Shown here: in pieces, positions 9,413 through 28,678 of the stretch | Layout of the letters: each line of letters starts with the position of its first letter | How positions within the stretch are numbered: the stretch's first letter is position 1 | Assembly (NCBI GenBank): GCA_021831785.1 | Contig: JAKBMB010000011.1 | Span: 255,491-319,490 of the forward strand | Reading direction: 5' to 3' | Length of the DNA stretch: 64,000 nt | Source of the DNA: Deltaproteobacteria bacterium | GTDB taxonomy: Bacteria; Desulfobacterota; Binatia; Binatales; Binataceae | Notes under the pieces: model-generated | Told to the model about the DNA's origin: nothing | The model's database searches: none | What the model saw: the letters and a program-made list of their open reading frames with translations, nothing else | Translations under genes and position numbers: made by a program

Positions 9413-9596
9413 TAGACGAAGCGAGCTCTTGCGGAAAACCACGGGCGGGCGTCGCCCGGGAACGGGCGAGGGCAAGCCGGCGGCGGACGCGAGGGGCGCG
9501 ACAGGTTTCGCCCGGCCGGCAGGCTATAGACATTGAAATTCGGGCCGCCTTCGCGTTAGCGTGGCTAGGCAACAGGCTTCGGCGGGGGGTAATCCG

Positions 9597-10505
9597 ATGG
9601 CAGAACGGACTGGCGCGGCCGAGCGGGCTACTGACGACTCGGTGCGTACGCTCGCCATTGACATAGGCGGCAGCGGGATCAAGGCAATCACGCTCGACCG
9701 GCAAGGCAAGCCGCTGACCAAGCGCGTGCGTGTCCCCACGCCCAGACCGGCCACGCCAAAGGCGGTGGTCCGCACGGTCTGCAGGCTCGCTAAAATGCAG
9801 CCGGGCTTCGACCGCGTCTCGGCCGGCTTTCCCGGGGTGGTAAAGGACGGCGTCGTTTATAGCGCGCCGAATCTAAGCAAGAGATGGGACAGCTTCGACC
9901 TGCAAAAGGCGCTGCAAAATAAGCTTGAACGACCGGTGCGAGTGGCCAATGACGCCGCGGTGCAGGGCGCAGGCGCGGTGAGCGGGCGCGGCCTGGAGCT
10001 CGTCATTACGCTGGGCACCGGCTTCGGTTCGGCGCTGTTTGCCGACGGACGGCGCATCGCGCTCGAACTGGGGCACCATCCCTTCCATAAGGGTAGGACC
10101 TACGAGCAGGAACTCGGCGCCCGCGCATTGGCAAAAAAGGGCAGGAAGAAATGGATGGCTTATTTGCGCGAAGCGATTGATGACCTCAAGCGCACGTTCA
10201 ACTACGACCGGCTATATATTGGCGGAGGCAACGCGAAGTATATACGCTTCGACCTGCCGTCCGGGGTAAAAGTGGTGCGCAACATCGACGGGCTGCTCGG
10301 CGGAATCGCGCTCTGGAGCGAGTCCGAGACGCAGCACTCCGCGCCGCCGCCGCCGGCTCGCCGGCACCCGCGCCGCGCGCGGCGCACTCGTGTGGATGGC
10401 GCGCGGGCGTCGGCCGAAAAGCCGGAGCGCACCCAAGCCGCGGCGAGCGCCGAGGCCGGCACTCACACGCCGGCAACCGAATCGCCCGGCGATAAGCTCG
10501 CCTAG
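9597..10505 (+). CDS. ppgK: ROK family kinase, polyphosphate-glucokinase-like
   Basis: A 302-residue sugar-kinase fold protein. The phosphate-1 loop LAIDIGGSGIKAI is near the N-terminus, then the ROK features VSAGFPGVVKDG, VANDAAVQG, TLGTGFGSALF and, near the end of the domain, the RLYIGGGNAKYI and GLLGGIALW segments typical of strictly polyphosphate- or ATP/polyphosphate-dependent glucokinases. It would phosphorylate glucose using polyphosphate. ATG 9597 is preferred over GTG 9561 because of the GGGGGG run seven bases upstream. The last 65 residues are an Ala/Arg/Pro-rich low-complexity tail not found in the family. SixA, CHAD and Ppx genes nearby fit a polyphosphate theme. Confidence 0.8.
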   Translation: MAERTGAAERATDDSVRTLAIDIGGSGIKAITLDRQGKPLTKRVRVPTPRPATPKAVVRTVCRLAKMQPGFDRVSAGFPGVVKDGVVYSAPNLSKRWDSFDLQKALQNKLERPVRVANDAAVQGAGAVSGRGLELVITLGTGFGSALFADGRRIALELGHHPFHKGRTYEQELGARALAKKGRKKWMAYLREAIDDLKRTFNYDRLYIGGGNAKYIRFDLPSGVKVVRNIDGLLGGIALWSESETQHSAPPPPARRHPRRARRTRVDGARASAEKPERTQAAASAEAGTHTPATESPGDKLA

Positions 10506-11003: not shown

Positions 11004-11906
11004 ATGTCTGGTCGGCGCGCGTTTGCGGCTACCGCTCAAGGCAGGAAAGCGGGCGTCGAGCTTATGGCAGTAACACCCAAAGATGGTTTCGATGCGCAAG
11101 GCGCGCTGACCGCAGCTAACTTAGCGTGCGGCGGGTCGGTGAATGAGGACGGCCAGGCGCGCGAGGAGATAGGCTCGTCCGAGAGCACGCGCAGGAGTCT
11201 TCTTTTATCGCCCCATCCGTATCCGGGGCGACTGATCGCGGTCGAAGGCATCGACGGTTCAGGCAAGTCGACGCAGTTGATTTTGCTGGAGCGATGGCTT
11301 CGCGCCCGCGGCTATCCGGTGCGCTTTACCGAATGGAACTCCTCCCGGCTGGTGCGCCAATCGCTGCGCCGCGGGAAGAGAAAGAATTTGCTCACCCCCA
11401 CCACGTTCAGCCTGCTTCACGCGGTAGACTTCGCCGATCGTTTGACCTACAACATTTTGCCCCCGCTCAAGGCCGGGATGATCGTGCTTTCCGACCGCTA
11501 CGCTTACACGGCGTTTGCGCGCGACGTCGCGCGCGGGGTACATCCTGAATGGGTGCGCAAGGTCTACAGCTTCGCGCTGCGCCCCGACCTGACGCTCTAC
11601 TTCCGCGTTCCGATTACGGTGTCTTTGGAGCGCCTGCTCTCGGGCCGCGCCAAGCTTAAGTATCACGAGGCGGGAATGGACCTCGGTCTCTCTTCCGACC
11701 CGGCCGAGAGCTTTGCGGTGTTTCAGAACCGGGTGCTGGACATTTACGACCAATTAACCGTCGAGTTCGGCTTGCGCACGATTGACGCCACCGGCGAGAT
11801 TCTGGACCAGCAGCGGACCGTGCGCCGAATGGTGCGCGAAATACTTCGCGACTACGATCGCGAGCAAGCGAGGGGTAATCATGGGGCCGCCATCCAATCG
11901 TCGTAA
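11004..11906 (+). CDS. thymidylate-kinase-like P-loop protein, first of tandem pair
   Basis: A 300-residue P-loop NMP-kinase-like protein. About 75 poorly conserved residues precede the kinase core, which has an intact Walker A (EGIDGSGKST, K88), the base-binding FADRL helix and the DRYAYTAFAR motif corresponding to the DR loop of dTMP kinases. The usual TREPGGT segment is replaced by FTEWNSS and the arginine-rich lid by KYHEAGMDLGL, so it is a divergent subfamily. ATG 11064 is an alternative start. It overlaps the paralogous next gene by 26 bp. dTMP phosphorylation is possible, but a different phospho-acceptor is as likely given the polyphosphate-type neighbours. Confidence 0.8.
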   Translation: MSGRRAFAATAQGRKAGVELMAVTPKDGFDAQGALTAANLACGGSVNEDGQAREEIGSSESTRRSLLLSPHPYPGRLIAVEGIDGSGKSTQLILLERWLRARGYPVRFTEWNSSRLVRQSLRRGKRKNLLTPTTFSLLHAVDFADRLTYNILPPLKAGMIVLSDRYAYTAFARDVARGVHPEWVRKVYSFALRPDLTLYFRVPITVSLERLLSGRAKLKYHEAGMDLGLSSDPAESFAVFQNRVLDIYDQLTVEFGLRTIDATGEILDQQRTVRRMVREILRDYDREQARGNHGAAIQSS

Positions 11907-12627
11907 AAGTTGGTACGGTCACGGCCTGCCATACCTCACCGAGAAGCGGCTGCCGGGCCATTTGATCGCAATCGAGGGCACTGACGGCGTGGGCCGCTCG
12001 ACCCAGATTCAGCTTCTGCGGCCGTGGCTCGAAGTCGAGGGTTACGCGGTGAGCAACACCGGCTGGGCGCGCTCGCCGCTGCTGCACGAGACCATCGGCC
12101 AAGCCAAAGCCGGCCATCAGCTTACCGTCTCGACTTTCAGTTTGTTCTACGCGGCCGATTTTGCCGACCGGCTCGAACACGAGATCCTGCCCGCTTTGCA
12201 GGCGGGGTTTATCGTCATCGCCGACCGCTACATGTACACCGCTTTTGCGCGGAACACGGCGATGGGCGCCGACCCGGCGTGGACCCGCGACCTCTTCGGG
12301 ATGGCGCTTTTGCCGGACCTGGTGCTTCATCTTGATATCGACGTCGAGACGCTCATCCCGCGGGTGGTGCAGAACAAGGGCATGAATTACTGGGAGTCCG
12401 GGATGCATCTGGCGCTCGGCACCGATTTGTTCGATTCCTTTGTTCGCTACCAGGGGCGCCTTATCGAGGAATACCGCCGCCTGGCGAGCGAGTTCGGGTT
12501 CATTACGGTCGATGCGCGGCGCTCGATCGACGAGGTGCAGGACGATCTGCGCCGCCATATCCTGGATTACCTGCCGATCACCGGAGCGTCTCGGCCCGAA
12601 GAAGGTTCGCCGAACAACGGCGAGTGA
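11881..12627 (+). CDS. thymidylate-kinase-like protein with degenerate Walker A
   Basis: A 248-residue paralogue of the preceding protein, aligned over its whole length (TFSLFYAADFADRL, DRYMYTAFARNTAMG and NYWESGMHLALG match the partner). The Walker A reads GTDGVGRST: the invariant lysine is arginine (codon CGC, at least two changes from AAG/AAA), and the acidic residue of the partner's FTEW segment is lost (NTGW). These changes predict weak or no ATP hydrolysis, as in a pseudokinase subunit. Thymidylate kinases are dimers, so a heterodimer with the upstream protein is a natural model. ATG 11881 has GAGGGG upstream and overlaps the previous gene. Confidence 0.8.
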   Translation: MGPPSNRRKSWYGHGLPYLTEKRLPGHLIAIEGTDGVGRSTQIQLLRPWLEVEGYAVSNTGWARSPLLHETIGQAKAGHQLTVSTFSLFYAADFADRLEHEILPALQAGFIVIADRYMYTAFARNTAMGADPAWTRDLFGMALLPDLVLHLDIDVETLIPRVVQNKGMNYWESGMHLALGTDLFDSFVRYQGRLIEEYRRLASEFGFITVDARRSIDEVQDDLRRHILDYLPITGASRPEEGSPNNGE

Positions 12628-12867: not shown

Positions 12868-13368
12868 ATGATGCTCTACATCGTTCGGCACGCGGAGGCC
12901 AAGCCGGCCGGCCAAGGCGTCGGCGACGAGGCGCGCAGGCTAACGCCGCGCGGCCGCGATCGAACGCGCGACGCGGCCGCGGGGATGGCCGCGCTTGGGC
13001 TCAAGTTTGACGCGATTCTGACCAGTCCGCTGCCGCGCGCTAAGGAGACGGCGGAAATCATCGCCGCGGCTTACCCGGACGGCGCGCAGCCCCAGGAGTT
13101 GCCCGCCCTGGTGGGCAGCGTGGCGCCGGCCGACGCGCTGGCCGCGCTGGCGCCTTTCGCGCGCAACCAGAGCCTGCTCCTCGTGGGACATGAGCCGCAG
13201 CTCAGCGGGCTCGTGGCGCTTTTGCTCACCGGAACTGGAGACGGCTTGCAGGTGAATTTCAAGAAAGGCGCGTGCGTCGCGCTCGAGCTGGCGCGGCGCT
13301 TCGAGACCGGCGCCGCTCATCTCCGATGGATGCTTACGCAGCGCCAACTGCGCCGGCTGCGCAAGTAA
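12868..13368 (+). CDS. sixA: SixA-type phosphohistidine phosphatase
   Basis: A 166-residue histidine phosphatase of the short SixA branch. The catalytic RHAE motif (H8) is at the N-terminus, the second-site region is TSPLPRAKETAEI, and the second catalytic histidine lies in LLLVGHEPQLSGL. SixA removes phosphate from phosphohistidine on HPt domains or on the nitrogen PTS protein. Gene neighbourhoods pairing SixA with CHAD and Ppx/GppA proteins are common, consistent with the convergent CHAD gene 174 bp downstream. A second ATG at 12871 is an alternative start. The catalytic residues seem complete, so an active enzyme is expected. Confidence 0.88.
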   Translation: MMLYIVRHAEAKPAGQGVGDEARRLTPRGRDRTRDAAAGMAALGLKFDAILTSPLPRAKETAEIIAAAYPDGAQPQELPALVGSVAPADALAALAPFARNQSLLLVGHEPQLSGLVALLLTGTGDGLQVNFKKGACVALELARRFETGAAHLRWMLTQRQLRRLRK

Positions 13369-13542: not shown

Positions 13543-14577
13543 TCAGGCGGGCTTAAGCTCCATTTCGGCCGCGGCCTGCGAGGGCGCGTGCTCGTCGCTT
13601 TCGGCTTTGTGGGCGCGCTGCTCGATCAAGCCTTCGAGCAGCGGCCATTGCGGCGCGTTTCCTACCTGAGCGAGCAGCTCTTCGGTCTCGGCAAGCTCCG
13701 CCTTGCGCTGCGTAGCGAGCTTGGCCAGCAAGCGGCTTGCCGCTCGCGGCTGCTCTAACAGAAAGGCCGGGTCCGCCAGGGCCTTGGCGGCCATCCGCGC
13801 GAGCTCGCGCCGGTCATGCAGGCGGCCTAGCGCGTCCTGTAGGTTGCGCAGCCATGCCAGCGCCGGTTTTACTTCACCGGCGCCGAGGTCCCGAGCCAGC
13901 TCCAGTCTGTAGCGCAAGCGCTTGGTCTGAACGCGGAAGGCGTGGACATCGGCCGGATCCAAGCTTTTTCGCGCGCGTGAAAAAACGCTGCGCCACAGGG
14001 CGTAGGACTCCTTTAGCGCGGCGCTCATAAGGGCTTTCGGATGGCCGTGGGTTGGGCGGCCGGCTGCCGTGGAGGCGGCGTTATGGGTCAGGCCTTTGAG
14101 GCTTTGCCCCAGGGTGAAGAACCGGCGGTTGGCGAGCCTGCGCCGAGCGCGGCCGATCGCTCGCTCGCGCCTTGCCAGCAGGTAGCTGTGAACCGTCTCC
14201 CACGCGCGTTGCTCGTCGGGGTTGCGCACGCGCTTGAGCCTGCGCCTGACCATCTCGATGAGAACGTCGCAATCGCGCCACGTCCCGACCGCGCGGCGCG
14301 ATTGGCGCAGCGTGCGCACCACGGCTTGCGCCTGCGGGCTGCGCGGCCTGGGGAATAGGGCGACGACGACTTGCTGAAGCCGTCGGCTCCACACCCGCAG
14401 ATCGTGAACCGCCTCAACGTCCTCCTCGCCCAAAACCTTCGGTAGCTGAGTTAAAAACTTACGCAGCCGCGCTGCCAGCAGAACATCCAGCGGGGAAGGC
14501 CGTGAGCCCTCATCTGTGGTGCTTGCGCTGCGACCGGTATTGTCGCGCGTCGAAGTGAGCATCGTCTTGCCCGGCAC
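13543..14577 (-). CDS. CHAD domain protein, polyphosphate-binding
   Basis: A 344-residue helical CHAD (conserved histidine alpha-helical) protein. The two halves each contain the basic histidine motif: VHDLRVWSRRLQQ in the first and VHAFRVQTKRLRYRLEL in the second. The rest is rich in Arg/Lys on helices, making the positively charged groove that binds polyphosphate in characterised CHAD proteins. The start is GTG 14577 (GGAAG just upstream) or ATG 14562. It is convergent with sixA. The 30-residue C-terminal tail (EQRAHKAESDEHAPSQAAAE) is not part of the domain. Binding to polyphosphate granules is family knowledge; no enzymatic domain such as CYTH is fused here. Confidence 0.88.
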   Translation of the reverse strand: MPGKTMLTSTRDNTGRSASTTDEGSRPSPLDVLLAARLRKFLTQLPKVLGEEDVEAVHDLRVWSRRLQQVVVALFPRPRSPQAQAVVRTLRQSRRAVGTWRDCDVLIEMVRRRLKRVRNPDEQRAWETVHSYLLARRERAIGRARRRLANRRFFTLGQSLKGLTHNAASTAAGRPTHGHPKALMSAALKESYALWRSVFSRARKSLDPADVHAFRVQTKRLRYRLELARDLGAGEVKPALAWLRNLQDALGRLHDRRELARMAAKALADPAFLLEQPRAASRLLAKLATQRKAELAETEELLAQVGNAPQWPLLEGLIEQRAHKAESDEHAPSQAAAEMELKPA

Positions 14578-14976: not shown

Positions 14977-15534
14977 ATGGCTAAGCGGCGCGCAGGTGAG
15001 CGCGATGTAGGTGCGGCCGTCGAAAGCGGTATCGAAATGGAGACGAACTGGTACCTGGTGCGGACCAAAGCGGGCGAAGAGCGGATCGCGCAGGGCCATC
15101 TGGCTCAACTTGCCGGCGACTTGCTGCTGCCGCTTCTCAAGGTTCGAGTCCGTCGATGGGGCCGAATGGTGGACTCGGTTGCTCCTCTTTTCCCGTCGTA
15201 TCTGTTTGCCCAGCTCGATTACGAGCGTGAGTGCGGCCGCGTGCGTTTTACGCGCGGGGTTCGAGACATAGTCTGCTTCGGGCATCAACCGGCGGACGTC
15301 CCGCGATGGATTGTCGAAGAGATGAAGCAGCGCTGCGCGCAGGGACCGGTGGAGTTGCCACGCCATGCGTTCTCACCCGGTGAACCTGTGCGGGTAATTG
15401 ACGGTCCGCTTGAGGGGTTTGAAGGGATCTTTCAGCACCATCTTTCCGGCGCCGAGCGGGTTGCCGTTTTGCTCTCCACGATGAGCGGGGCGCGGGCCGT
15501 GCTGCCCGCGAAGATGATCGTCCCCGTAGCCTAG
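14977..15534 (+). CDS. NusG/RfaH-like specialised antiterminator
   Basis: A 185-residue NusG paralogue. The NGN domain starts at METNWYLVRTKAGEE (residue 21), passes through PLFPSYLFAQLDYE and ends near residue 125; a KOW domain follows (FSPGEPVRVIDGPLEGFEG). Proteins of this kind (RfaH, UpxY, LoaP) bind RNA polymerase and suppress termination across long polysaccharide operons, recruited by a specific element early in the transcript. It is the first gene before a 12-kb block of same-strand polysaccharide genes, and an ops-like GGCGGTAGC lies just downstream. ATG 15037 is an alternative start. It is too divergent to be the housekeeping NusG. Confidence 0.88.
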   Translation: MAKRRAGERDVGAAVESGIEMETNWYLVRTKAGEERIAQGHLAQLAGDLLLPLLKVRVRRWGRMVDSVAPLFPSYLFAQLDYERECGRVRFTRGVRDIVCFGHQPADVPRWIVEEMKQRCAQGPVELPRHAFSPGEPVRVIDGPLEGFEGIFQHHLSGAERVAVLLSTMSGARAVLPAKMIVPVA

Positions 15535-15643
15535 ACGGGCCATGGCGGCTAAAGGCCGCCGCGGCAGGCGCGGCTCAAGATGCGGCCGGCCGTAAGAAAA
15601 TCAACAACGCTGCGTACCTTGCCTTTAGTTTACAGGTGGGAGC

Positions 15644-15652
15644 GGCGGTAGC
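15644..15652 (+). promoter_or_regulatory. ops-like antiterminator recruitment site GGCGGTAGC
   Basis: GGCGGTAGC is identical to the first nine bases of the enterobacterial ops element recognised by RfaH (the rest, beginning CCATCG here, differs). It lies on the coding strand in the untranslated gap between the NusG-like gene and the chain-length determinant gene, which is where a recruitment site for the operon would be expected. The sequence match is visible; function is inferred. Confidence 0.5.
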
Positions 15653-15726
15653 CCATCGCGGCGAAGGCGCGTAAATATTCGGCGCTTAACCTCCTGACCT
15701 TTAAGCATCAGCGGTCGTCCAGGACG

Positions 15727-16767
15727 GTGTTACAAGGCGAGAACAAGGCAGCCGCGATGGCCAAAGCGGCCTGCAATGGAGAAGGTTCCGCGGCGCAGAC
15801 CGCCAATGGTTATAGCCGAGACTTCGACGGCTACGACGAAGGCCTGGAGCTAATCGTCTACTGGCTGCTGCTCAAATCGCGCTGGCGGCTCATCGCCGTG
15901 GGCACCGTGCTTGCCGTGGCTGCCACGTTTCTTAGCACCGCCTTTCTGATGACGCCGTATTATCGCGCGACGGCGCTACTGCGTCCGGTCGGACCGGAAA
16001 GCGGCGCCAACAAGCTTAGCGGCGCCGTCGCCGCGCTGGGCGTGGGCGCGCTCGGTGGGGTCGCGGCGCAGCTTGGCGGCGGGGGGCCGCAGGGCGAAGC
16101 GGCGCAGGAATATATGGCGATTCTCAACAGCTACGCCTTCACGATGGCGCTGGTCGAGCGCTATCGGCTTGGGCCGCAGGTTATTCCCAAGCGCCCGGCG
16201 TGGTTATGGCCTGTGCGCTATTCGCAATGGCGGCTCTATAGACTGATGCAGAAGAGATTTAGCTGCGAATACGATCGCCTGAGCGGCAACATGACGCTTC
16301 ATTTCTTGAACCCCGGCCCGGCAATCGCGCGGCGCGTGCTTGAGCTTTACATCGAGGACCTGCGCGAGAAGCTTCGCCATCGCGAGATTCAGAGCGCGCA
16401 GGCAGCGAAGGTGTCCTTTGAAGAAGAGGCCAAGGCGACCCCTGACGTGCTGCTACAAACTCAGCTTTACGAGCTTATCGCGCGCCAGGTGCGCCGTCAG
16501 AAGTTGGCGCAGGTCGAGGCGGACTTCGCCTTCGTCATCATCGACCCGCCGGTAGTTGACGAGAAGCCGTACTCGCCCAAGGTAATCCTGGACTGCGTGC
16601 TTGCGGGCATCCTGGCGCTGTTCATGCTGGCGTTCGCAGTAATCGCGCGCAATTCCTGGTCGCAGTCGCTCGAGCGCCACACGCTCTCGCTCGCCGCCCG
16701 CAACTCGCTCGCTGCCCAGTTGCCGCCCGCCGCCGGTCAGCCGCCGCATCCGCCGCTCCAAACCTGA
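15727..16767 (+). CDS. Wzz-type polysaccharide chain length determinant
   Basis: A 346-residue inner-membrane polysaccharide co-polymerase. TM1 lies at about residues 55-78 (WRLIAVGTVLAVAATFLSTA) and TM2 near the C-terminus (VILDCVLAGILALFMLAFAV, about 278-298), separated by a periplasmic helical region starting YYRATALLRPV, which is the Wzz topology. A Gly/Ala-rich loop (GALGGVAAQLGGGG) follows the first strand. No tyrosine autokinase domain is fused. It would set the modal length of the polymer made by the Wzy protein below. The start is GTG 15727 or, with a better upstream AAGG, ATG 15757. The stop overlaps the flippase start (TGATG). Confidence 0.82.
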   Translation: MLQGENKAAAMAKAACNGEGSAAQTANGYSRDFDGYDEGLELIVYWLLLKSRWRLIAVGTVLAVAATFLSTAFLMTPYYRATALLRPVGPESGANKLSGAVAALGVGALGGVAAQLGGGGPQGEAAQEYMAILNSYAFTMALVERYRLGPQVIPKRPAWLWPVRYSQWRLYRLMQKRFSCEYDRLSGNMTLHFLNPGPAIARRVLELYIEDLREKLRHREIQSAQAAKVSFEEEAKATPDVLLQTQLYELIARQVRRQKLAQVEADFAFVIIDPPVVDEKPYSPKVILDCVLAGILALFMLAFAVIARNSWSQSLERHTLSLAARNSLAAQLPPAAGQPPHPPLQT

Positions 16768-18116
16768 TGCCCGACCCGGCCCAACGCAACGCTGCAGCGC
16801 CCGCCTCCCGTGCGCCAGCGAGAAACGCGGTCGCGCACCTGGCGCAACCGGCGCGGCTATTGTCCTTCGCGCGCCGGGTGCTTCCCTTGGCAATCGCCCA
16901 GCTTATCGGGCGCCTTGGCAGCCTAATACTTGCCGCTTACACCGGGCGCGTACTGGGCGCCGCGGCGCTCGGCGACTATGCGCTTGGGCGGACCCTGGTC
17001 GGCTACGCGGTTATCAGCACCGACATGGGCGCTACCGACATTGGCGTGCGCCTGGTAGCGCGAAATCGCGAGATGACACCGCTGTTGATGCGCACGGTTC
17101 AGCGCAAGCGCTTGATCCTTGCTGTGCTCGCTATCGCCTCGCTTGGCGCCTACGCCCTGCTGGGGCCGGTGCCGCGGGGTTCCGGATTGTTGCTCGCATG
17201 TTTCGCCTTGGGCGCGCTGCCCTGGTGCCTTAGGCTCGATTGGCTGTTCTGGGGCTTGGAGCGCTTTTCGCTAGTGTCGATGTCCGAGACGCTTGGGAAT
17301 GTGGTTTACGTGGGCTCGGCGATCGGTCTGATGGCGCTGATGGTGCGCGCTCCGCTCTATGGCGTCGCCGCCGCCGGGGCGCTCGCGATCTTGAGCAGCA
17401 CCGCTCTTACCCGCGTGTGCTGGCGCCGGGCTCTCGCGGCATCTCATCCTGGGCGCGCCGACGCTCTGCCCGCACAGATTGCCGCCGAAAGCGGCTGGTG
17501 GCCCGTGCTGCTTCTAGGCGGCTCGCGCATCTGCAACATCCTGTTTCAGAGCATCGACGTGGTGCTCTTGGGCGCGATGGTCACGGCGCGCGAACTGGGA
17601 CAGTACAGCGCCGCGTACCGCGTCCTTGTGATCGTCTTTGGCATCTACTACCTCGCTACCAGCGCAGCATTTCCGGCGCTGGCACGAATCGAGCGCTCGC
17701 GCGAGTCGCGCGTTCTCATCACGGCCGCCCTCGCCGCGTCGGCGATGGCCGGCGTCGCGGTAGCGCTCGCGATACGACTCCTTTCGTTCCCCATCATCGT
17801 GACGGTTTTCGGGCCCGGCCTGGTTCCCGCGGCCGGGCTCCTGCGCGTGCTATGCTTCGCGATTCCGTTCGAGTTTGTCGCCACGTTGGTTTCGACAGTG
17901 CTGATCGCCGACGGCAGCAACGGTTTGATGGCGGTTGGGCGGCTGGCCGGACTTATCGCCAACGTCGCGCTCAATTTGGTCTGGATACCACGCTGGGGAG
18001 CATACGGCGCTGCCTGGGCTACGGTCGCTTCCTACACGGTTCTGGTCGCATTCTGGACAACCGCGCATATCGTTGGCCGAGGGCCAATCTTTCCCAGCCG
18101 CGCACCATGTGCGTGA
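16767..18116 (+). CDS. Wzx-type polysaccharide flippase
   Basis: A 449-residue MATE/MOP-superfamily membrane protein with about 12 hydrophobic helices. The N-terminal region (LPLAIAQLIGRLGSLILAAY, then GRVLGAAALGDYALGRTLVGY) is characteristic of oligosaccharide flippases that move undecaprenyl-linked repeat units across the inner membrane. Its ATG overlaps the Wzz stop codon, so the two are co-translated. The first 40 residues are Ala/Arg/Pro-rich and probably cytoplasmic. Wzx proteins are identified by topology and context more than by motifs; the adjacent Wzz and Wzy-like genes make this assignment secure. Confidence 0.85.
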   Translation: MPDPAQRNAAAPASRAPARNAVAHLAQPARLLSFARRVLPLAIAQLIGRLGSLILAAYTGRVLGAAALGDYALGRTLVGYAVISTDMGATDIGVRLVARNREMTPLLMRTVQRKRLILAVLAIASLGAYALLGPVPRGSGLLLACFALGALPWCLRLDWLFWGLERFSLVSMSETLGNVVYVGSAIGLMALMVRAPLYGVAAAGALAILSSTALTRVCWRRALAASHPGRADALPAQIAAESGWWPVLLLGGSRICNILFQSIDVVLLGAMVTARELGQYSAAYRVLVIVFGIYYLATSAAFPALARIERSRESRVLITAALAASAMAGVAVALAIRLLSFPIIVTVFGPGLVPAAGLLRVLCFAIPFEFVATLVSTVLIADGSNGLMAVGRLAGLIANVALNLVWIPRWGAYGAAWATVASYTVLVAFWTTAHIVGRGPIFPSRAPCA

Positions 18117-18341
18117 CTGAGCTAATCAGGATTCATGCGCATTGGGGATGGGCGCGCAGTCACCATGCTAGCCGGCCGCTTCGCCGTCAAGCTTCTTCTC
18201 GTTACAGCGACACTGGCGGTGTTCCTTCTCTAGTCGCCTGAAGCGGCCCATCGAGCGTTGACGATCGGTACATGTTCCACCACGTCTCTTGAAGCGCGTC
18301 GAACTTCCTCCAGCCGAACACGTTTGTGCCTAATGTCCTTT

Positions 18342-18347
18342 TAGAGT
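18342..18347 (+). promoter_or_regulatory. TAGAGT -10 box, leaderless geometry
   Basis: TAGAGT ends seven bases before the ATG of the polymerase gene, the same spacing as at 4243 and 12855. No Shine-Dalgarno sequence precedes the ATG. This suggests an internal promoter and a leaderless start within the polysaccharide locus, after a 238-bp non-coding gap. Confidence 0.45.
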
Positions 18348-18354
18348 CTCGCCG

Positions 18355-19671
18355 ATGATCAACGTCATTCTGGTTTCACTTTTGATGACGGAACTTGTCC
18401 TCGTCACGCGGTGGCTGAGTGGTGGTTTTTTCAGCATCGTAAACGTGGTGATGCTGTACATAGTCTCGCTCTACGTCGGCGGGGTCAGCTTCTATCTGGA
18501 CGCGGGTCACCTTACCTATCTGTTCGTCTTTGCAATGGCGGTGTGTTACGTGATCGGCGCCGCGATGGTCCGGCTGCTCCCGCTGCGACAGTCCGGCGCG
18601 CGCCGCGAACCGGTTGAGTTCTATTCCCGGTTCGAGCGGCCGGCTTTAATCAGGGCGCTGGTCGGCTTTAACCTTGTCGCGCTGGGAGTCGCCGCCTACC
18701 GCTTTGAGACATTTGGAATTCCGCTACTGACCGGAGACTGGTACGGAACGTCAGGTGTCTGGGCCAATACGGGGCTCTTCAATCAGTTGGTTCAGATGAC
18801 CGGCTCGAGCGCGACCCTCATTAGCGCTGCGGTATGGTACGCCCTCCACCAGATTTATCGGCGGTGCTGGATGCTAGTCGCAGCAGCGCTGGCGTTTCTG
18901 CTCGCGTGTATGTTTCTGCTGCTCCAGGGCTCCAAGGGCGCGGCGCTGGAACCGGGGATGGTAATGCTCGTCGCGATTTTCTACGCACGGCGCGCTGTCG
19001 GCCTGGCAACGCTTGTTGCGTTTGGCGCGCTCGCTGTCGCCGTCGCGGTTGTGGTTGGCTCGTTCTGGATGAAGTTCGGTGCCACGAACGACATCGCCAA
19101 ACTATATTTTTCGCGCGCGACGAGTGGTGCGACCGAGACCCTCGACTACGTGCTTTATGGCTGGAGTGGCCCGTATCAGCAAGGCGCCACCTTTGGCGCA
19201 GAAGTGGGCCGGGTCCATGACCAGCTCGCGGGGACTCCCAAGAAGCCACTCTTCAACCAGGTGATCGCCAACGAAATGCAGAATTGGCCAGTTGACTACT
19301 ATACCCCAATGGCGCCGGAGCTGACCCTCTTCGGAGTTGGCTACGTCAACTTCGGGACGGGCGGCGCGGTCGTGGCCGCCGTTTTGCTCGGCATGCTGAT
19401 AGAGGGCGCCCATGTCAGATTGACCTCCGTCGGGCGCATGGCCGAATGGCAATTCGCGGTGCGTGCACAGTTCATTCAGGGACTAATACACGTGGCAAAG
19501 GGCGGCACGCTCATGGCGCTCGAAGGCACGGTGATACCACTTGTGCTGTTTCTCGGAATTGTGCTTGCGTTATATCTCTTGCAACACCTTCTCAGACTTT
19601 CCGCGCCGCCGAGGCGCGTCGGTGACCCAATCGCGCTCCCCAGCCTCACGTCCGCGCAATCCCGTACATGA
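18355..19671 (+). CDS. Wzy-like oligosaccharide repeat unit polymerase
   Basis: A 438-residue polytopic membrane protein with about 10-12 helices (for example VILVSLLMTELVLVTRWL, VNVVMLYIVSLYVGGVSFYL). A large central loop (about residues 240-320) holds the GWSGPYQQGATFGAE and PVDYYTPMAPELTLFGVGY segments, consistent with the big periplasmic loop of O-antigen polymerases. It probably joins repeat units delivered by the flippase. Sequence motifs for this family are weak, so the call rests on topology, length and position between Wzx and the glycosyltransferases. Predicted to be expressed from its own leaderless promoter. Confidence 0.75.
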   Translation: MINVILVSLLMTELVLVTRWLSGGFFSIVNVVMLYIVSLYVGGVSFYLDAGHLTYLFVFAMAVCYVIGAAMVRLLPLRQSGARREPVEFYSRFERPALIRALVGFNLVALGVAAYRFETFGIPLLTGDWYGTSGVWANTGLFNQLVQMTGSSATLISAAVWYALHQIYRRCWMLVAAALAFLLACMFLLLQGSKGAALEPGMVMLVAIFYARRAVGLATLVAFGALAVAVAVVVGSFWMKFGATNDIAKLYFSRATSGATETLDYVLYGWSGPYQQGATFGAEVGRVHDQLAGTPKKPLFNQVIANEMQNWPVDYYTPMAPELTLFGVGYVNFGTGGAVVAAVLLGMLIEGAHVRLTSVGRMAEWQFAVRAQFIQGLIHVAKGGTLMALEGTVIPLVLFLGIVLALYLLQHLLRLSAPPRRVGDPIALPSLTSAQSRT

Positions 19672-19828
19672 CTGGAACTGATCAAACCGGTTCGTGCCAC
19701 GTCCAAGCAAGAGCCCGTAGGTGGCTCGCAGCGTGAGGAGGTGTCCCCTTCTCACCTTCGTCGCGTTAGCGGCGCGGCTTGAGCCACGGACGGCGCTTCG
19801 ACCGGCGAAACTCGGCGAGCGGTAAAGC

Positions 19829-21016
19829 ATGTCCACTTCAAAAACGCGCGTCCTGATTGTGTGTTACGACCTCATGGATGGGGGGAGCCCGCGCGTGATT
19901 GTCAACCTGCTGAACTTTCTGGACAAGGGGGCGTTTGACTTGCGCTTGTTGCTGTTTGACGACCGCCGCGCCTACACCCTTCGTTACCCCGTGCCAACGC
20001 GCGTTATTAGCATACGAGGAGGCGGTTCGTTGAGACAAAAGATAAGCGCGAACTTGAGAGCAGCGATCGCGATAGCCAGAGCGATCCGTGAAGAGGCGCC
20101 GGAGATCGTGCTTACGTCCGGGGGAATCACTAACTGGGATACGCTTCTGGGTGTCGTTGGGCGACGACGCCGTCCCAAGATCGTGGTGGGCGAGCACGGA
20201 GCCGGTGCGGAAAGGCTTCGAAAGGATCGCGCGACGGTTGGGTTGCAGCGTTGGCTGACGAAGTGGTTATACAAAAGGGCGGACCGGATTGTGGCGGTCT
20301 CGGAAGGAGTCCGCCGCAGTCTCGCGGCGAGTGCCCGTTTACGCCCCGACTCCTGCGACGTCATATACAATCCAATTGATGTGGAGCAGATCCTGCACCT
20401 GTCGATGGAGGACGTGCCTCATCCGTGGTTTCACCGAAACATCCCGGTAGTTGTGACCACGGGCCGGATTGAACCGCTGAAAGGGTTCGACTGCCTTGTC
20501 CGCGCGTTCCGTCTTGTCCGGGATAGATGCGAAGCCAGGTGTGTGATCATCGGCGACGGTTCGGAAAAACGAGCCTTGCAAGCTTTGGTCCGAAACCAGG
20601 GTCTGGAATTGGAAGTAGACCTCGTTGGTTACAGAGCAAACCCATTCAGTTTCATGAGACGAGCAACGGTCTTCGCATTCCCATCTCTTGCGGGTGAAGG
20701 CTTTCCAATGGTTCTGGCCGAAGCGATGGTTTGCGGCGCACCGGTTGTTTCAACCGATTGCGTTGCCGGCCCTTCCGAGATCCTCCAGCAGGGCCATTGC
20801 GGCATGCTGGTTCCGGTCGCGAATGAGGGGGCCCTTGCGGACGGACTTCTCAGGCTGCTACGAGACGACAATTTACGTGAGCAGTATCGGTCGCGCGGCG
20901 CTCAGCGGGCGAATGACTTTGCTGCGGCCCGAGTCGCTGCCAGATATGGCGAACTCTTCAACGAGTTGATCGACGGCGCGGACGTCTCGTCAAGCAAGCC
21001 TTGTGGCGCCATCTGA
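19829..21016 (+). CDS. GT4 family glycosyltransferase
   Basis: A 395-residue GT-B enzyme. The N-terminal Rossmann domain opens RVLIVCYDLMDGGSPRVIVN, a typical acceptor-side segment with the Gly-Gly loop. The C-terminal donor-binding domain shows TTGRIEPLKGFDCLVRAF, the IIGDGSEKRAL strand, and the GT4 E-x7-E motif in FPSLAGEGFPMVLAEAM (EGFPMVLAE). It should transfer a nucleotide-sugar residue to an undecaprenyl-linked acceptor on the cytoplasmic face. It is most like N-acetylgalactosamine/glucose-type GT4 enzymes, but the sugar cannot be inferred. Codon third positions look less GC-rich than in flanking genes, hinting at transfer with the locus; this was not computed. Confidence 0.88.
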   Translation: MSTSKTRVLIVCYDLMDGGSPRVIVNLLNFLDKGAFDLRLLLFDDRRAYTLRYPVPTRVISIRGGGSLRQKISANLRAAIAIARAIREEAPEIVLTSGGITNWDTLLGVVGRRRRPKIVVGEHGAGAERLRKDRATVGLQRWLTKWLYKRADRIVAVSEGVRRSLAASARLRPDSCDVIYNPIDVEQILHLSMEDVPHPWFHRNIPVVVTTGRIEPLKGFDCLVRAFRLVRDRCEARCVIIGDGSEKRALQALVRNQGLELEVDLVGYRANPFSFMRRATVFAFPSLAGEGFPMVLAEAMVCGAPVVSTDCVAGPSEILQQGHCGMLVPVANEGALADGLLRLLRDDNLREQYRSRGAQRANDFAAARVAARYGELFNELIDGADVSSSKPCGAI

Positions 21017-21059
21017 GACACTGAGCAAAGCAACACAAGCAGACTATTTACGAAAATCG

Positions 21060-22031
21060 ATGAGAGTTCTTACCGCAAACCATCACAGCGCGTATCTGTA
21101 TCTTCTCGCTCATACCGGGCATGCCTTCGACGTGGTGGGGAAATGGGATTTCGACAACCGACCGCTTCCGGCGAACTTCGAGATGCTCAGCTCGATCGGC
21201 GACGCCAGGGATTTGCGCGAGTACCGCGTGATAATAGGACACAGGCCGACCGATTTTGCGAGTCTGCTGCCGCGCGCCTTTGCCTTCCGCATTCCGTACG
21301 TTCAAGTAATACACGGTAACGTCCGAAGGGTCGGCGAGGGCCGGGGCTCGTTGCGTGCGTGGCTGCGGCGGGCGTCGAAACGGATCGGACTGCGTGCGCT
21401 GTTCCAGGTCTTTGCACTGTCGGGCGCCGTGAGATTCGTGTTCATATCTCAATATGACAAGCAGGGGTGGGGCGTTGAAGGAGCCGTGATCGATCACGGC
21501 ATACCGATTTCCGAGATGTACCCCTACACCGGAGAGAAGTCAGAGCTGCTCACGGTGGGCAACGCGCTGCACCGCGAGCATTTTGACCGCGCGATGATGG
21601 CGAGCGTGCGCGAGAAGCTTCCCGTGCAAATCATCGGCGTCAATTCGAAAATAGAAGGCTCTCGCCCGTCGCGCGACTGGGACGACCTGCGGGCAATGTA
21701 CCAAACGTACCGCAGTTATCTGAACTTTACACGCGAACCCGAGCGCGGATACACGCTTTCTACGCTCGAAGCGATGGCTGTCGGGATGCCTGTAGTAGCG
21801 ATCCGGCATCGGGTGACACCGATCGTCGATGGCGAAAACGGGTTTCTCGTCGATACAGCCGAAGAGATGATCGCGCGCGCAAGACTTCTGCTGGCCGATG
21901 TGAAGCTGGCGCGCCGGCTCGGGCAGAGCGCGCGGCAGACCGTCAAAACGAGGTACGGAATCGACCGTTTTGTTGGCCAGTGGAACGAGGTACTGTACGC
22001 GGCCGCCGGTCAACGGATAAAGCGCCTGTGA
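21060..22031 (+). CDS. GT4-like glycosyltransferase
   Basis: A 323-residue protein counted from ATG 21060, whose product begins MRVLTANHHSAYLYLLAHTG, a normal first strand of a GT-B fold. A GTG at 21003 would add 19 residues and overlap the previous gene. The N-terminal domain contains GKWDFDNRPLP and the IGHRPTDF segment; the C-terminal domain has YLNFTREPERGYTLSTLEAM with the E-x7-E-like EPERGYTLSTLE motif and VDGENGFLVDTAEEM. Shorter than usual GT4 enzymes. It would add another sugar of the repeat unit; donor and linkage are unknown. Confidence 0.78.
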   Translation: MRVLTANHHSAYLYLLAHTGHAFDVVGKWDFDNRPLPANFEMLSSIGDARDLREYRVIIGHRPTDFASLLPRAFAFRIPYVQVIHGNVRRVGEGRGSLRAWLRRASKRIGLRALFQVFALSGAVRFVFISQYDKQGWGVEGAVIDHGIPISEMYPYTGEKSELLTVGNALHREHFDRAMMASVREKLPVQIIGVNSKIEGSRPSRDWDDLRAMYQTYRSYLNFTREPERGYTLSTLEAMAVGMPVVAIRHRVTPIVDGENGFLVDTAEEMIARARLLLADVKLARRLGQSARQTVKTRYGIDRFVGQWNEVLYAAAGQRIKRL

Positions 22032-22855
22032 GGCTCAACCGGTACATCATTCCTCGCCTAGCAACCCGACTTTGCCGCGCGTTCGCGGGTCATCGTTCCT
22101 GCAGCATACGTACGCGCTACGGCAACCGAATAGCGGTGAGGCCAGGAATGGCCGTTAACGAACTTCTAATGTTTTGTCTGCGCGGCTTTGCGGCCGAACT
22201 CTCAAACCTGCTCGCCGTTACGCTGGGGCCGGGTGCCACTTTCATAGACATCGGCGCCCACATCGGCTGGTTCTCGACACTTGCTGCTGAGCGCATTGGT
22301 GCCCACGGCAGGGTGGTCGCGGTTGAGCCCGAGCCCACGAACTTCGCACAACTGATGCACAACCTGTCCGGCGCTCTATGCAAAGTGGAAACTCACGCCC
22401 TGGCGCTGGGCAACAACGACTGCGAAGTTTTTCTTGAAAAGGGAGAGTACAGCAACCTCCATTCGCTTCGGCGCACGAATGCCCACGACAGGGGTTGGCG
22501 AGTTCGAATGACCACGGGAGACCTTTTGTTTGCGGACCTGGCCGACGTGGACTACGTAAAGATCGATGTTGAGGGGTTGGAGCTCGGCGTGATTCTGGGT
22601 ATGACAGAGTGCCTTCGCCGTTGGTCACGGGTCAAAGTGCTGATGGAGTTCAATCCGGAGCTTTGGCAAACGAATGAGCTGCTAACGGCAGAGCGCATCC
22701 TAGGCAGCCTGGGTTTTCAGGTGTGGTCGATAGAGAGGCTGCCGCCGTGGTCGACCCGCCTGCCACGGCTTTATCGGCAAGGCAGCCTATGCGCGGCAAG
22801 GCGGCCTCGGACCTGTGACTTTCTCATAGCACGCGAGCCTCTTGAGATCGCGTGA
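22028..22855 (+). CDS. FkbM family SAM-dependent methyltransferase
   Basis: A 275-residue methyltransferase counted from GTG 22028, which overlaps the upstream stop as GTGA. The class I SAM site is clear: motif I FIDIGAHIGWFSTLAA, motif II VVAVEPEPTNFAQL (acidic residue binding ribose), then DYVKIDVEGLELGVILG, the signature of FkbM-type O-methyltransferases. Within polysaccharide loci these usually methylate a hydroxyl of a sugar residue. It would cap or decorate the polymer built by the flanking glycosyltransferases. The acceptor cannot be determined from the sequence. Confidence 0.85.
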   Translation: MRLNRYIIPRLATRLCRAFAGHRSCSIRTRYGNRIAVRPGMAVNELLMFCLRGFAAELSNLLAVTLGPGATFIDIGAHIGWFSTLAAERIGAHGRVVAVEPEPTNFAQLMHNLSGALCKVETHALALGNNDCEVFLEKGEYSNLHSLRRTNAHDRGWRVRMTTGDLLFADLADVDYVKIDVEGLELGVILGMTECLRRWSRVKVLMEFNPELWQTNELLTAERILGSLGFQVWSIERLPPWSTRLPRLYRQGSLCAARRPRTCDFLIAREPLEIA

Positions 22856-24168
22856 GTGCCCATAGAGGCGCACAAGGCCCGGTGGTGGCCAAATCCCGTA
22901 AGTTTTGGACTGGCGTGCGAGCCGGGAGTGTGGCAGCCAGGTGCGTAATCGCGCTTCAGTCGCTGGGAAACGCGGTACTCTGCGCTCTGCGGAAATGCCT
23001 GTGGCCGCGCACGCGGCCCGCGTCGGCAGCGAGCATCTGCGTCTTCCGTCCGGCGGCGCTCGGCGATCTCGTAGTTGCGATACCAGCGATATATGCGATC
23101 CGCCGCGCCTACCCGTCCGCAAAGATAACCCTGGTCACCTGGCCGGAGGAACTGGGGAAAGCTGAGAGCTTCAAGCTGCTGGACGGCGCCGATTGGATTG
23201 ATGAAATCCTCGTATACCACAGGGGCGAGCTCGGTGGCCTGCGCGGCAAGCTTCCGATGATCCGCGATTTGCGCCGGCGTCGTTTCGATATCTGGTTCGA
23301 GATTCCCCCGGCTCACTGGTCGTTAAGCAAGCTACTGGTCACGATGCTCGCAGCGCGGATTGCTGGCGCGAAATGGGCGTACGGATGGCGCTCTTCCTCT
23401 ATCGGCGCGTTTGCCCAGGCCCAGTCGGAATGGCTCGATCTTCCGACTCAGGTCGAGCGGTTACTTCGTATCGTTGCCGAAGCAGGGATACCCTGCGATT
23501 TCTCGCCGCAATGGCCGCTGCCGGCCACCAGGACTCATCGTAATTTCGTCGCTGACCTGATCGACGAGCTGGGACTTACCTCGAGACGATTGGTCGCGCT
23601 GGCGCCCTGTGCAGGGTATCCCGCTAATCTTTGGCCGCGCGACCGATTCGTGTCCGTGGGTCGCGCGCTGGTTGCCGACGGACGCTCCGTTGCGGTGCTG
23701 GGTGGTGCGGCGGATTCAGCCGTGTGCGAGTCCGTCGCGAATGAGATCGGCGCTGGCGCCGCGAGTTTCGCCGGGAGATTATCGCTCGTGGAAACTTGTG
23801 TGCTGCTCGAAAAATGTCGCCTGCTCGTGGCGCTCGACTCAGGACCCCAGCATCTTGCCGCTGCGATGGGAACGCCTTGCATCTCGCTGTTTTCCTGCCG
23901 CGACGTGCGCGGCGAATGGCGGCCATGGGGCGAGTCGAGCTTCGTCATCCAGAAATGGGTCGATTGTCATACCTGCCGGCGGCGCGAGTGCCCCTTCGAT
24001 AACCGCTGTATGAAGCTGATCAACGTGGACGAAGTGATCGAGCTCGCAGGAAAGGTCCTGCGGAGCAGAAACGGACACGCATCGACCGGGATTTCACCCG
24101 GCTTTCCGCGCTCCGCGCTGCCGATGTTGCGCGTGTCCAGCGCTCGTGCCGACAGCACGCCGGCCTGA
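22852..24168 (+). CDS. GT9 family glycosyltransferase (heptosyltransferase-like)
   Basis: A 438-residue GT-B enzyme of the GT9 family. After a 60-residue basic leader, the conserved N-terminal RPAALGDLVVAIPAIYAIR loop and LVTWPEE strand appear; the C-terminal domain has LAPCAGYPANLWPRDRF (nucleotide phosphate region) and the family hallmark LDSGPQHLAAAMGTPCISLF. The tail contains four cysteines (CHTCRRRECPFDNRC), found in a subset of GT9 proteins and possibly structural or metal-binding. GT9 enzymes transfer heptose from ADP-heptose in LPS cores, but family members also act in exopolysaccharide synthesis. GTG start overlaps the FkbM stop. Confidence 0.85.
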   Translation: MSAHRGAQGPVVAKSRKFWTGVRAGSVAARCVIALQSLGNAVLCALRKCLWPRTRPASAASICVFRPAALGDLVVAIPAIYAIRRAYPSAKITLVTWPEELGKAESFKLLDGADWIDEILVYHRGELGGLRGKLPMIRDLRRRRFDIWFEIPPAHWSLSKLLVTMLAARIAGAKWAYGWRSSSIGAFAQAQSEWLDLPTQVERLLRIVAEAGIPCDFSPQWPLPATRTHRNFVADLIDELGLTSRRLVALAPCAGYPANLWPRDRFVSVGRALVADGRSVAVLGGAADSAVCESVANEIGAGAASFAGRLSLVETCVLLEKCRLLVALDSGPQHLAAAMGTPCISLFSCRDVRGEWRPWGESSFVIQKWVDCHTCRRRECPFDNRCMKLINVDEVIELAGKVLRSRNGHASTGISPGFPRSALPMLRVSSARADSTPA

Positions 24169-24242
24169 GCTCTTTCATTGATCCCTCCGCGCCGTCGCCC
24201 ACCGCTGGGTACGAGACTCTTTTCACATTTGGCGCCACTCGC

Positions 24243-25448: not shown

Positions 25449-25482
25449 TCACGGCACAGATACTCGCCGGATATAGCCCCCC

Positions 25483-25740
25483 ACTACAGATGGCTGCGCA
25501 ATATAGTGACAGGCATCCTCTCCGCTTAGTCGCGGGACAGACCTCCCGCCACGGCATTAGCTCCTACCTTCTGCCGGGCCATCAAATCTGTTACCCATCC
25601 TGCCGGTCTGTACCCCTTTTGCACCTCTCCCAGGGGGAGAGGTCGCGCCGAAGGCGCGGGTGAGGGTGGCTGCCGCGCCCGGCTCAGCACCCTCACCCCA
25701 ACCCTCTCCCAGAGGGCGAGGGGGCAGAAAGGGTTGCGGC
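25483..25740 (+). repeat. repeat family C, copy 2
   Basis: The 341-bp gap before the sugar transferase is mostly repeat: a head resembling the end of copy 1 (GCAATATAGTGACAGGCATC), a CTTAGTCGCGGGACAG block, and a GC-rich tail with CACCTCTCCCAGGGGGAGAGG and CCCTCACCCCAACCCTCTCC. The same modules in the same order and orientation follow the sugar transferase gene at 27218-27465. No coding potential is supported. Confidence 0.65.
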
Positions 25741-25789
25741 GCTCTGACTCCTTCCCGCCGCACCGCCGCCGCGTTCGCAGAGGCATGAC

Positions 25790-27465: not shown

Positions 27466-27584
27466 TAGAATCGCTGCGCGCAGAGCTTGTGACTGATTTG
27501 AGTCGGGCGGGCCGCCCCACTATCCAAAAATGCGAAATGCTCAGCATGACAGAGAAAGCAAAAGCGTTTATGAGATGGGCTCTA
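27466..27584 (-). repeat. repeat family B, partial inverted copy
   Basis: Contains TAGAATCGCTGCGCGCAGAG and the GGGCGGGCCGCCCCACTA module in plus orientation, then TCAGCATGACAGAGAAAGCA and AAGCGTTTATGAGATGGGCT ending at TCTA, which is the reverse complement of the family B head. It directly abuts family C copy 3 and stops about 26 bases before the promoter of the Ppx/GppA gene; a frame running through the repeat into that gene is therefore unlikely to be its real N-terminus. Confidence 0.65.
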
Positions 27585-27609
27585 TTCTTCAAGCACAAAG
27601 CCGCGCTGG

Positions 27610-27615
27610 TATAGT
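27610..27615 (+). promoter_or_regulatory. TATAGT -10 box, leaderless geometry
   Basis: TATAGT is followed after seven bases by the ATG at 27623, with no Shine-Dalgarno sequence. A weak -35-like CTTCAA lies at 27587-27592, right at the border of repeat B. Same geometry as at 4243, 12855 and 18342. Confidence 0.55.
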
Positions 27616-27622
27616 AATGCGC

Positions 27623-28678
27623 ATGGCGGAAGCGATGCGCTCCTCATCCCTCAACGGCCATGCTGCGCACGGCGATTCCCGCACTCCGGCCAAAGTGGCG
27701 GTGATTGACATCGGGTCGCACTCGATCCACATGGTGATCGCCAAAATTCGCGGCGAGCGCTTCAAGATCGTGGCGCGAATGCGCGAACCGGTGGGGCTCG
27801 GCTACGGCACGTTGGTCGAAGGGCGGCTGTCGCGGCGAGTGACAGCGGCCGGGATGGAGGCGCTGGCGGCGATGAGCGAGGCCGCGGAGCGCGAAGGAGC
27901 GGATGCGATTTTGCCGGTCGCGACCAGCGCCATTCGCGAGGCGGCCAACGGCGCACAATTTATCCGCCGCGCGCGCACGGAACTGGGGCTCGTCGTGGAA
28001 GTTATCAGCGGAGACGAGGAGGCGCGGCTTATCTTCCGCGCCGTCTCGAGCGTCTTCGACCTGCGCGGCCGGCGCGCGCTCGTGGCGGACATCGGCGGCG
28101 GCAGCGTCGAGCTGGTGCAGGCGCTGGGCAACAGGATTCAGTGGCAGACCAGCCTTAAGCTGGGCGCGGTGCGGATGACCGAGCACTTTATCGACTCGGA
28201 CCCGCCCGAGCCGATGGAGATCTGCGCGCTGCGCGCTTACGCCGACCGGCGCTTGCGTCCATTCGCAGCTAGGTCGGCGGCCGAGGGGCCGACGGAGATG
28301 ATCGCCACGTCGGGCACCTTTCGCACCCTGGCTTCGATGGCTTACGCGCGGCGCACGGGCGAGACCCTGCGGCAAATGCACGGGCATCCTCTGGGGCGCA
28401 GGGAATTGGCTCTTTTGCGCGCCGTTTTGTGCGGTCAGACCGCCGAAGAAAGAGAGCGCATGTCGGGCCTAAACCCGCGCCGCGCGGGCGTTATCGTGGC
28501 CGGCGCGCTGCTGGCCGAAGCGCTGATGGATGGTTTCGGCCAGCGCGTCGTGCGGATTAGCGACTGGGCGTTGCGCGAGGGCGTCATCCTCGAGTTTATC
28601 GCGCTAAGCCGCGCTACGCGAAGCGCCAGCTCGCCCAAGCCCGCCCGCAACGGCCGCGGCGGAACCGCGCGCGCTTAA
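27623..28678 (+). CDS. ppx: Ppx/GppA family exopolyphosphatase/pppGpp phosphatase
   Basis: A 351-residue ASKHA-fold phosphatase. The phosphate-1 loop VAVIDIGSHSIHMVIAKI is near the N-terminus, the catalytic-glutamate segment reads ISGDEEARLIFRAVSSVF and the phosphate-2 loop VADIGGGSVELVQ follows. Its length fits the short Ppx/GppA forms without a C-terminal HD domain. It would release phosphate from polyphosphate ends or hydrolyse pppGpp. ATG 27623 is chosen because the TATAGT box ends seven bases before it; ATG 27617 and 27635 are alternatives. CHAD, SixA and a polyphosphate-glucokinase-like gene in the same window support the polyphosphate role. Confidence 0.85.
   Translation: MAEAMRSSSLNGHAAHGDSRTPAKVAVIDIGSHSIHMVIAKIRGERFKIVARMREPVGLGYGTLVEGRLSRRVTAAGMEALAAMSEAAEREGADAILPVATSAIREAANGAQFIRRARTELGLVVEVISGDEEARLIFRAVSSVFDLRGRRALVADIGGGSVELVQALGNRIQWQTSLKLGAVRMTEHFIDSDPPEPMEICALRAYADRRLRPFAARSAAEGPTEMIATSGTFRTLASMAYARRTGETLRQMHGHPLGRRELALLRAVLCGQTAEERERMSGLNPRRAGVIVAGALLAEALMDGFGQRVVRISDWALREGVILEFIALSRATRSASSPKPARNGRGGTARA

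Follow-up and report, generated by a model that had tools for sequence, protein, structure and literature searches.

The window analysed here, that is, the whole stretch of 64,000 nucleotides, carries two overlapping genes, A and B, both matching the Pfam family PF02223 (Thymidylate_kin; cut-off 27 bits). The coordinates of the two genes, of their motifs and of the neighbouring genes are collected in Table 1.

Table 1. Features of the A–B locus and its surroundings (positions are those of the window).
Feature	Position	Strand	Basis
ROK kinase-like gene, upstream of A	9561..10505	+	PF00480, 67.9 bits
Gene A, active-looking TMK-fold kinase (ORF)	11004..11906	+	PF02223, 72.7 bits
A: Walker A lysine codon AAG	11265..11267	+	
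A: DR motif	11493..11498	+	
A: lid motif YHEAGMDL	11661..11684	+	
ORF B (limits before start choice)	11782-12627	+	
GAGGGG, probable ribosome-binding site of B, inside the 3' end of A	11870..11875	+	direct sequence reading
Gene B, degenerate TMK-fold partner (probable start ATG 11881)	11881..12627	+	PF02223, 71.3 bits
B: Arg39 (CGC) replacing the Walker A lysine	11995..11997	+	
B: DR motif, retained	12223..12228	+	
B: lid motif YWESGMHL	12388..12411	+	
SixA-like histidine phosphatase	12868..13368	+	TIGR00249, 78 bits (cut-off 74.5)
CHAD-domain protein	13543..14577	-	PF05235, 106.9 bits
Ppx/GppA phosphatase	27530..28678	+	PF02541, 208.9 bits

An earlier note had described the two genes as overlapping thymidylate kinase (TMK)-like paralogues with a common modified lid, a Walker A lysine being intact in the first and replaced by arginine in the second. 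Both open reading frames were indeed found, and the motifs were read in the same way: the P-loop is EGIDGSGKST in A and EGTDGVGRST in B, the acidic residue of TEW in A is lost in the TGW of B, and the glycine column of the lid, present in both proteins, is a gap in 13 of the 16 canonical or phage TMK rows of the alignment described below. B most likely starts at the ATG behind GAGGGG, overlapping A by 26 nt, and therefore the residue R39 corresponds to the CGC codon listed in Table 1. The relatives compared do not share the first ~69 residues of ORF A; the conserved part begins at about 11211–11214 and opens with HPYPG. A scan for promoters and terminators gave no promoter-like sites and four terminator-like sites versus 5.0 expected.

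Several neighbours of the pair suggest a connection with polyphosphate (polyP), the phosphate polymer of the cell. The ROK gene scored 110 bits against the polyphosphate glucokinase model NF045942, which is below the cut-off of 250, and it also adjoins the pair in two related loci, L004 and L005. In these loci, the ROK, A, B, SixA, CHAD and Ppx genes lie together. Since Ppx follows there within about 1 kb of CHAD, the polysaccharide gene cluster that separates Ppx from the pair by 15 kb in the window looks inserted. This cluster, at 14977–27169 between CHAD and Ppx, includes NusG-like, Wzz, Polysacc_synt, glycosyl transferase and Bac_transf genes. Downstream of Ppx lies a PrkA serine kinase gene (30471–32405), which L004 and L005 also have on that side of the pair. 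The CHAD domain has been described as polyphosphate-binding (PMC6537752).

For the distribution of the tandem, genome contigs were scanned with B as the query, and the best 80 of 215 relatives were kept. Although B alone was sought, A was present at all 80 loci; in L027 and L035 its sequence is spread over two frames, and in L044 it is truncated where the contig stops. The tandem was found in Binatota-like bacteria, Nitrospirota, Chloroflexota and others. Two phyla were surveyed with a threshold of E 1e-20, at which very divergent pairs may be missed: the family occurred in 39 of 201 Chloroflexota genomes, always as two adjacent matches (39/39), and in 43 of 198 Nitrospirota genomes, the genes being adjacent in 42 and ~38 kb apart in G348. 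Three Nitrospirota genomes with one weak match each (G251, G259 and G268) were counted as having no pair. Over 119 loci, the mean identity to the window copies was 63% for A and 56% for B, and the divergence of the two was correlated (r 0.96). Because both the tandem arrangement and the contrast of Lys with Arg persist across phyla, the pair is more than a chance arrangement.

Meanwhile, the A query detected 13 loci on viral contigs, all scoring low against both profiles, and the B query detected only one, L098. This locus (L098:4556-5242) is a lone A-type kinase gene without B on a contig with genes for phage terminase, portal and major head protein, and its lid does not have the conserved Arg and Lys of A. 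The plasmid search returned 37 records, all below 60% identity; 10 of the 20 listed are annotated as tmk. A solitary extra A-type paralogue (L150:5414-6172) was seen in G159, a genome that also has the full pair.

The catalytic residues were counted in a joint alignment of 126 A rows (125 distinct), 114 B rows (112 distinct), 12 rows of B-prime and 16 TMK rows (14 distinct, with the canonical tmk of the own genome entered twice). B-prime is the first gene of the pair in a Nitrospirota subgroup, where the order is B-prime and then A. It should be noted that these counts contain near-relatives, that L098 (the phage gene), the solitary L150 and one of two fused second-position genes were counted with A, and that the other fused gene was counted with B. 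Rows with a profile match shorter than 150 positions (140 for L152-L169) were dropped, as were the duplicates L002, L003 and L099-L118; the window pair stands for L002 and L003.

The P-loop lysine is present in 125 of the 126 A rows, the exception being a fused second-position gene, and the DR motif in all of them. In B, arginine replaces the lysine in 114/114 rows and the DR motif is kept in the same number, and the acidic position of TEW/TGW, which is E in 111/126 A rows, is G in 105/114 B rows. The arginine is encoded by CGC (68), CGA (15), CGT (14), CGG (11), AGG (3) and AGA (2). As all six arginine codons are used, the residue itself appears to be selected in B, and the invariant arginine with its six codons rules out a sequencing error at R39. 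B-prime keeps the P-loop lysine but has EQ for the catalytic DR in 12/12 rows. One member of the pair is therefore without an essential catalytic residue throughout its branch, B by Lys to Arg and B-prime by DR to EQ, and activity would presumably be lost through either substitution. We read this as a conserved pseudokinase role of B, whose inactivity we infer. The coupling of an active-looking member with a degenerate one, seen earlier at a single locus, extends across phyla, with degeneration of more than one kind. That A and B are a kinase/pseudokinase pair is very probable in our judgement; it would be a clear one, the catalytic residues that the partner has lost differing between lineages.

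In the PDB, both proteins matched ST1543 of Sulfolobus tokodaii (2plr) best, with 197 bits for A and 148 bits for B; the next TMKs were far lower (57 and 46 bits, respectively). The AF2 models had a mean pLDDT of 88.2 for A and 83.7 for B. The model of A matched 5h70 with Z 28.9 and the next TMK with 24.1, and that of B with 25.5 and 23.4. The TMK fold, the P-loop lysine and the DR motif are thus all found in A, and B has the fold but Arg for Lys. No PPK2 chain was among the 50 structure matches listed for A or B, which excludes nothing.

Two trees, thinned at 75% and 72% identity, placed A, B and ST1543 in one clade apart from canonical TMK (support 100/99 and 100/100). In the first tree, A together with ST1543 (91/88) separates from B (91/78), and neither group takes in the phage gene L098 or either of the fused genes. 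The second tree, built without L148 and the majority of the viral TMK rows, puts ST1543 weakly (85/66) with the A genes of the B-prime–A pairs. With the degenerate columns masked, B-prime is sister to B in this tree (94/79); a single clade of B and B-prime was rejected (p 0.0005) for a set that included the outlying L149 fusion gene.

The acceptor pocket was compared by alignment with that of the M. tuberculosis TMK, in which Phe70 is described as stacking on the thymine and Arg74 as bonding it (PMC3619541). The aligned positions hold Phe in 8 and Arg in 14 of the 16 TMK rows. In this sequence alignment, as distinct from a complex structure, A has His (121/126) and Phe (120/126) there, and B has Tyr (113/114) and Phe (110/114); the thymine-site Arg occurs in 0 of the 252 A, B and B-prime rows. 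The Tyr and Gln that follow DRY in canonical TMK (15/16 and 16/16 rows) are Arg and Asp in A (124/126 and 125/126), and Arg follows DRY in 113/114 B rows. ST1543 has the same acceptor-site residues as A. Judged by these residues, the site differs from that of known dTMP kinases, and the acceptor of A is probably other than dTMP.

Alternatively, A could be a second dTMP kinase of the ordinary kind, with B as its decaying or neutral duplicate. The best Pfam, NCBIfam and PDB matches of the pair are dTMP kinases, and ST1543 bears this name as well. However, A and B score 75.9 and 80.3 bits against the dTMP kinase equivalog TIGR00041, both under the cut-off of 83.25, the thymine-site residues are replaced, and B is kept across phyla with its invariant arginine. 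At least three PF02223 matches were counted in 49 of 50 pair genomes (the third was not always confirmed as canonical; G037 has two), and the own genome has a canonical tmk (162.5 bits) on another contig. In the earlier note, the lack of such a gene was part of what would have spoken against its reading; the gene is present, and a housekeeping role of the pair as tmk in this genome is ruled out. We consider a second dTMP kinase with a decaying copy very unlikely.

The polyphosphate-gene setting described earlier for the window, with SixA and CHAD near the pair, was also found in the relatives. At 97 of 128 loci, at least one of Ppx, SixA and CHAD is found no more than 6 kb from the pair (Ppx in 82, SixA in 55, CHAD in 26). 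These loci are not 128 genomes, because L058 and L168 share one contig, and L120 and L150 belong to a single genome, as do L146 and L147 to another. Such a neighbour was found in 56/56 Nitrospirota loci, 7/12 loci of the B-prime type, 18/20 Binatota-like loci, 15/36 Chloroflexota loci (none in 21/36) and 1/1 Planctomycetota locus, and in none of the pair loci of Armatimonadota (0/2) and Poribacteria (0/1). As a control, the canonical tmk loci of pair genomes had Ppx, SixA or CHAD nearby in 0/20 cases, and the pair loci in 18 of these 20 genomes had a polyP neighbour in 13. The three profiles were seeded from the window, trained on the pair loci and applied unchanged to the controls; 4/20 controls, like many pair loci, span less than 12 kb.

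In L081 (Anaerolinea), A-B-CHAD is directly preceded by genes for two transport permeases and an ABC ATPase and by one that clusters with PhoU, and in L119 an ATPase and PhoU precede A-B-CHAD; by content and order, these upstream genes are phosphate-transport-like. In five Chloroflexota loci (L135 and L137-L140; for example, L138:7943-8545), B is followed directly by a NYN-domain gene that lies on the other strand.

Two genomes, G108 and G140, have the second-position gene fused to domain III of Ppx-GppA (PF21447; 36.9 and 30.0 bits, cut-off 27.3), and the fusions match the exopolyphosphatase 8jgo with E 1.4e-6 and 3.8e-12, respectively. The P-loops of these genes are degraded, and they are 'B' by position only. 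A TMK-like domain with a degraded P-loop joined to the Ppx/GppA C-terminal domain III was recorded at L145:6534-7940 and L149:5091-6482. We think it likely that A and B serve polyP or phosphate metabolism.

The same fusions, the PhoU and histidine-kinase neighbours of some Chloroflexota pair loci and a degenerate B with a conserved arginine would also fit a regulator, in which B or both proteins act as sensors of ATP/ADP or polyP that govern Ppx, SixA or the phosphate transport system. A regulatory function alone, however, has no need of the P-loop Lys and DR motif that are almost invariant in A, and we hold this explanation to be unlikely. The interpretation given in the earlier note was a catalytic/regulatory heterodimer, possibly with a substrate other than dTMP or as a sensor of nucleotide or phosphate status. 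Of this, the sequences support a degenerate partner kept with an active-looking one, a pocket that differs from the dTMP kinase type, the polyP neighbourhood and the Ppx-domain fusion; the heterodimer itself is a prediction from the conserved adjacency and the correlated divergence, and sensing stands as a rival only.

The occurrence of the pair was then compared with that of the known polyphosphate kinases PPK1 and PPK2. The own genome has PPK1 on another contig and, with A and B included, no PPK2 match (PF03976 at E of 0.001 or below), which rules out A and B as PPK2 by sequence. The count of pair genomes drew on 43 of the 80 loci kept from the scan (the best of 215 relatives); of these 43 genomes, 19 have PPK1, 33 have PPK2 and 3 have neither. 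Since PPK1 occurs in the own genome and in 16/20 Binatota-like pair genomes, the pair is not simply replacing PPK1; the latter count rules out a one-for-one replacement everywhere.

In Chloroflexota, PPK1 was found in 10/39 pair genomes versus 83/162 others (p 0.004; this and the following p-values are indications only, because the genomes are related and partly incomplete). Within the 86 PPK2-positive genomes of this phylum, PPK1 accompanies the pair in 7/27 and occurs without it in 56/59 (p 6e-11). A scarcity of PPK1 in Nitrospirota genomes with both the pair and PPK2 was predicted before counting, and the 65 PPK2-positive genomes gave 9/35 with the pair versus 22/30 without it (p 1.7e-4), eight having neither the pair nor PPK1. 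One genome, G206, with a PPK2 match below the cut-off, was counted as having no PPK2. Over all 198 Nitrospirota genomes, the pair and PPK1 are not anticorrelated (10/43 versus 24/155, p 0.26).

PPK2 itself is frequent where the pair occurs, in 27/39 Chloroflexota pair genomes versus 59/162 others and in 35/43 versus 30/155 in Nitrospirota. This co-occurrence is also expected if A merely feeds NDPs to PPK2, and together with the TMK fold of A and B and the lone A-type gene in the phage L098 it favours an NMP kinase of altered specificity, with B regulatory, which would supply NDPs for the polyP-driven PPK2 or for phosphate-starvation metabolism. Against this are the nine Chloroflexota and seven Nitrospirota pair genomes with neither PPK (one of the former, G066, has a 3.0 Mb contig, the genome being given as 3.0 Mb), the Arg and Asp in place of the canonical acceptor-site Tyr and Gln in A, and the absence of PPK1 in most cases exactly where the pair and PPK2 coincide. 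An NMP kinase of this kind is, in our estimation, rather unlikely.

As the best explanation, we tentatively propose that A and B are an obligate kinase/pseudokinase pair dedicated to polyP metabolism. A, with its intact P-loop, DR motif and basic lid, would move phosphate from ATP. B, which has kept the fold and the lid and appears to have lost the normal catalytic site, would form a heteromer with A and probably bind and position the polyP chain or regulate A, as in class II PPK2, where an inactive domain accompanies an active one. The most likely reaction of A would be ATP + polyP(n) = ADP + polyP(n+1), a role usually filled by PPK1. The proposal as a whole, with A extending polyP from ATP, stays short of probable, and the same holds for polyP synthesis taken by itself, which is a possible function that we would not yet call the expected one. 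Synthesis as the sole role is opposed mainly by the A-type gene that stands alone in a phage and by the presence of PPK1 alongside the pair in the window's group. If this reading is true, annotations as 'dTMP kinase' would be corrected.

In our literature search, which was mostly limited to papers outside subscription, no paper was found that proposes the A/B pair as a polyP enzyme. The closest known protein is ST1543 (PDB 2plr, 4nzy, 4rzx and 5h70), which, like A and B, belongs to their clade apart from canonical TMK and has A-type residues at nearly all compared positions. It is filed as a dTMP kinase and is considered here from the protein alone; the titles of its four PDB entries name ADP in one and TMP in none. 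In biomining archaea of the Sulfolobales, genes for SixA, PPX, a dTMP kinase and CHAD are reported to cluster together (PMC10892726), and these are the same gene types as in the pair loci. The topic of that paper is CHAD and copper; in the portion available, the kinase is a figure label and no second kinase is mentioned. Three papers describe polyP accumulation in Crenarchaeota, although neither PPK1 nor PPK2 has been detected in this group (PMC6864096, PMC7831078, PMC10892726). Our Sulfolobus acidocaldarius control gave a PF02223 match and no PPK1 or PPK2 match. That the pair is a further heteromeric polyP kinase, with no relation to PPK1 and separate from PPK2, which replaces PPK1 in many Chloroflexota and Nitrospirota, with ST1543 of the Sulfolobales as the polyP synthase of Crenarchaeota, is a doubtful extension of the proposal. 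With a pair of this gene context and co-occurrence, and a close archaeal relative of solved structure, the question of the Crenarchaeota polyP synthase becomes one for a two-gene assay.

PPK1, which belongs to a different family from A and B and lies on another contig in the own genome, possibly has the same role as the pair, judged by co-occurrence. PPK2 is nearer in fold. It is reported to share a common ancestor with TMK, and the class II PPK2 of P. aeruginosa to combine an active domain with an inactive one (PMC8776046). When the PPK2 of F. tularensis was used as a Dali query, TMKs came next after the PPK2s, namely 4NZY and 2PLR in the table and 2PLR and the S. aureus 4EAQ in the text of that paper (PMC4748334). 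A and B resemble PPK2 in the TMK-related P-loop fold and, with B as the presumed inactive unit, class II PPK2 in the pairing of an inactive with an active unit (PMC8776046), and differ from PPK2 in being separate genes with no PF03976 match and far closer to TMK in sequence.
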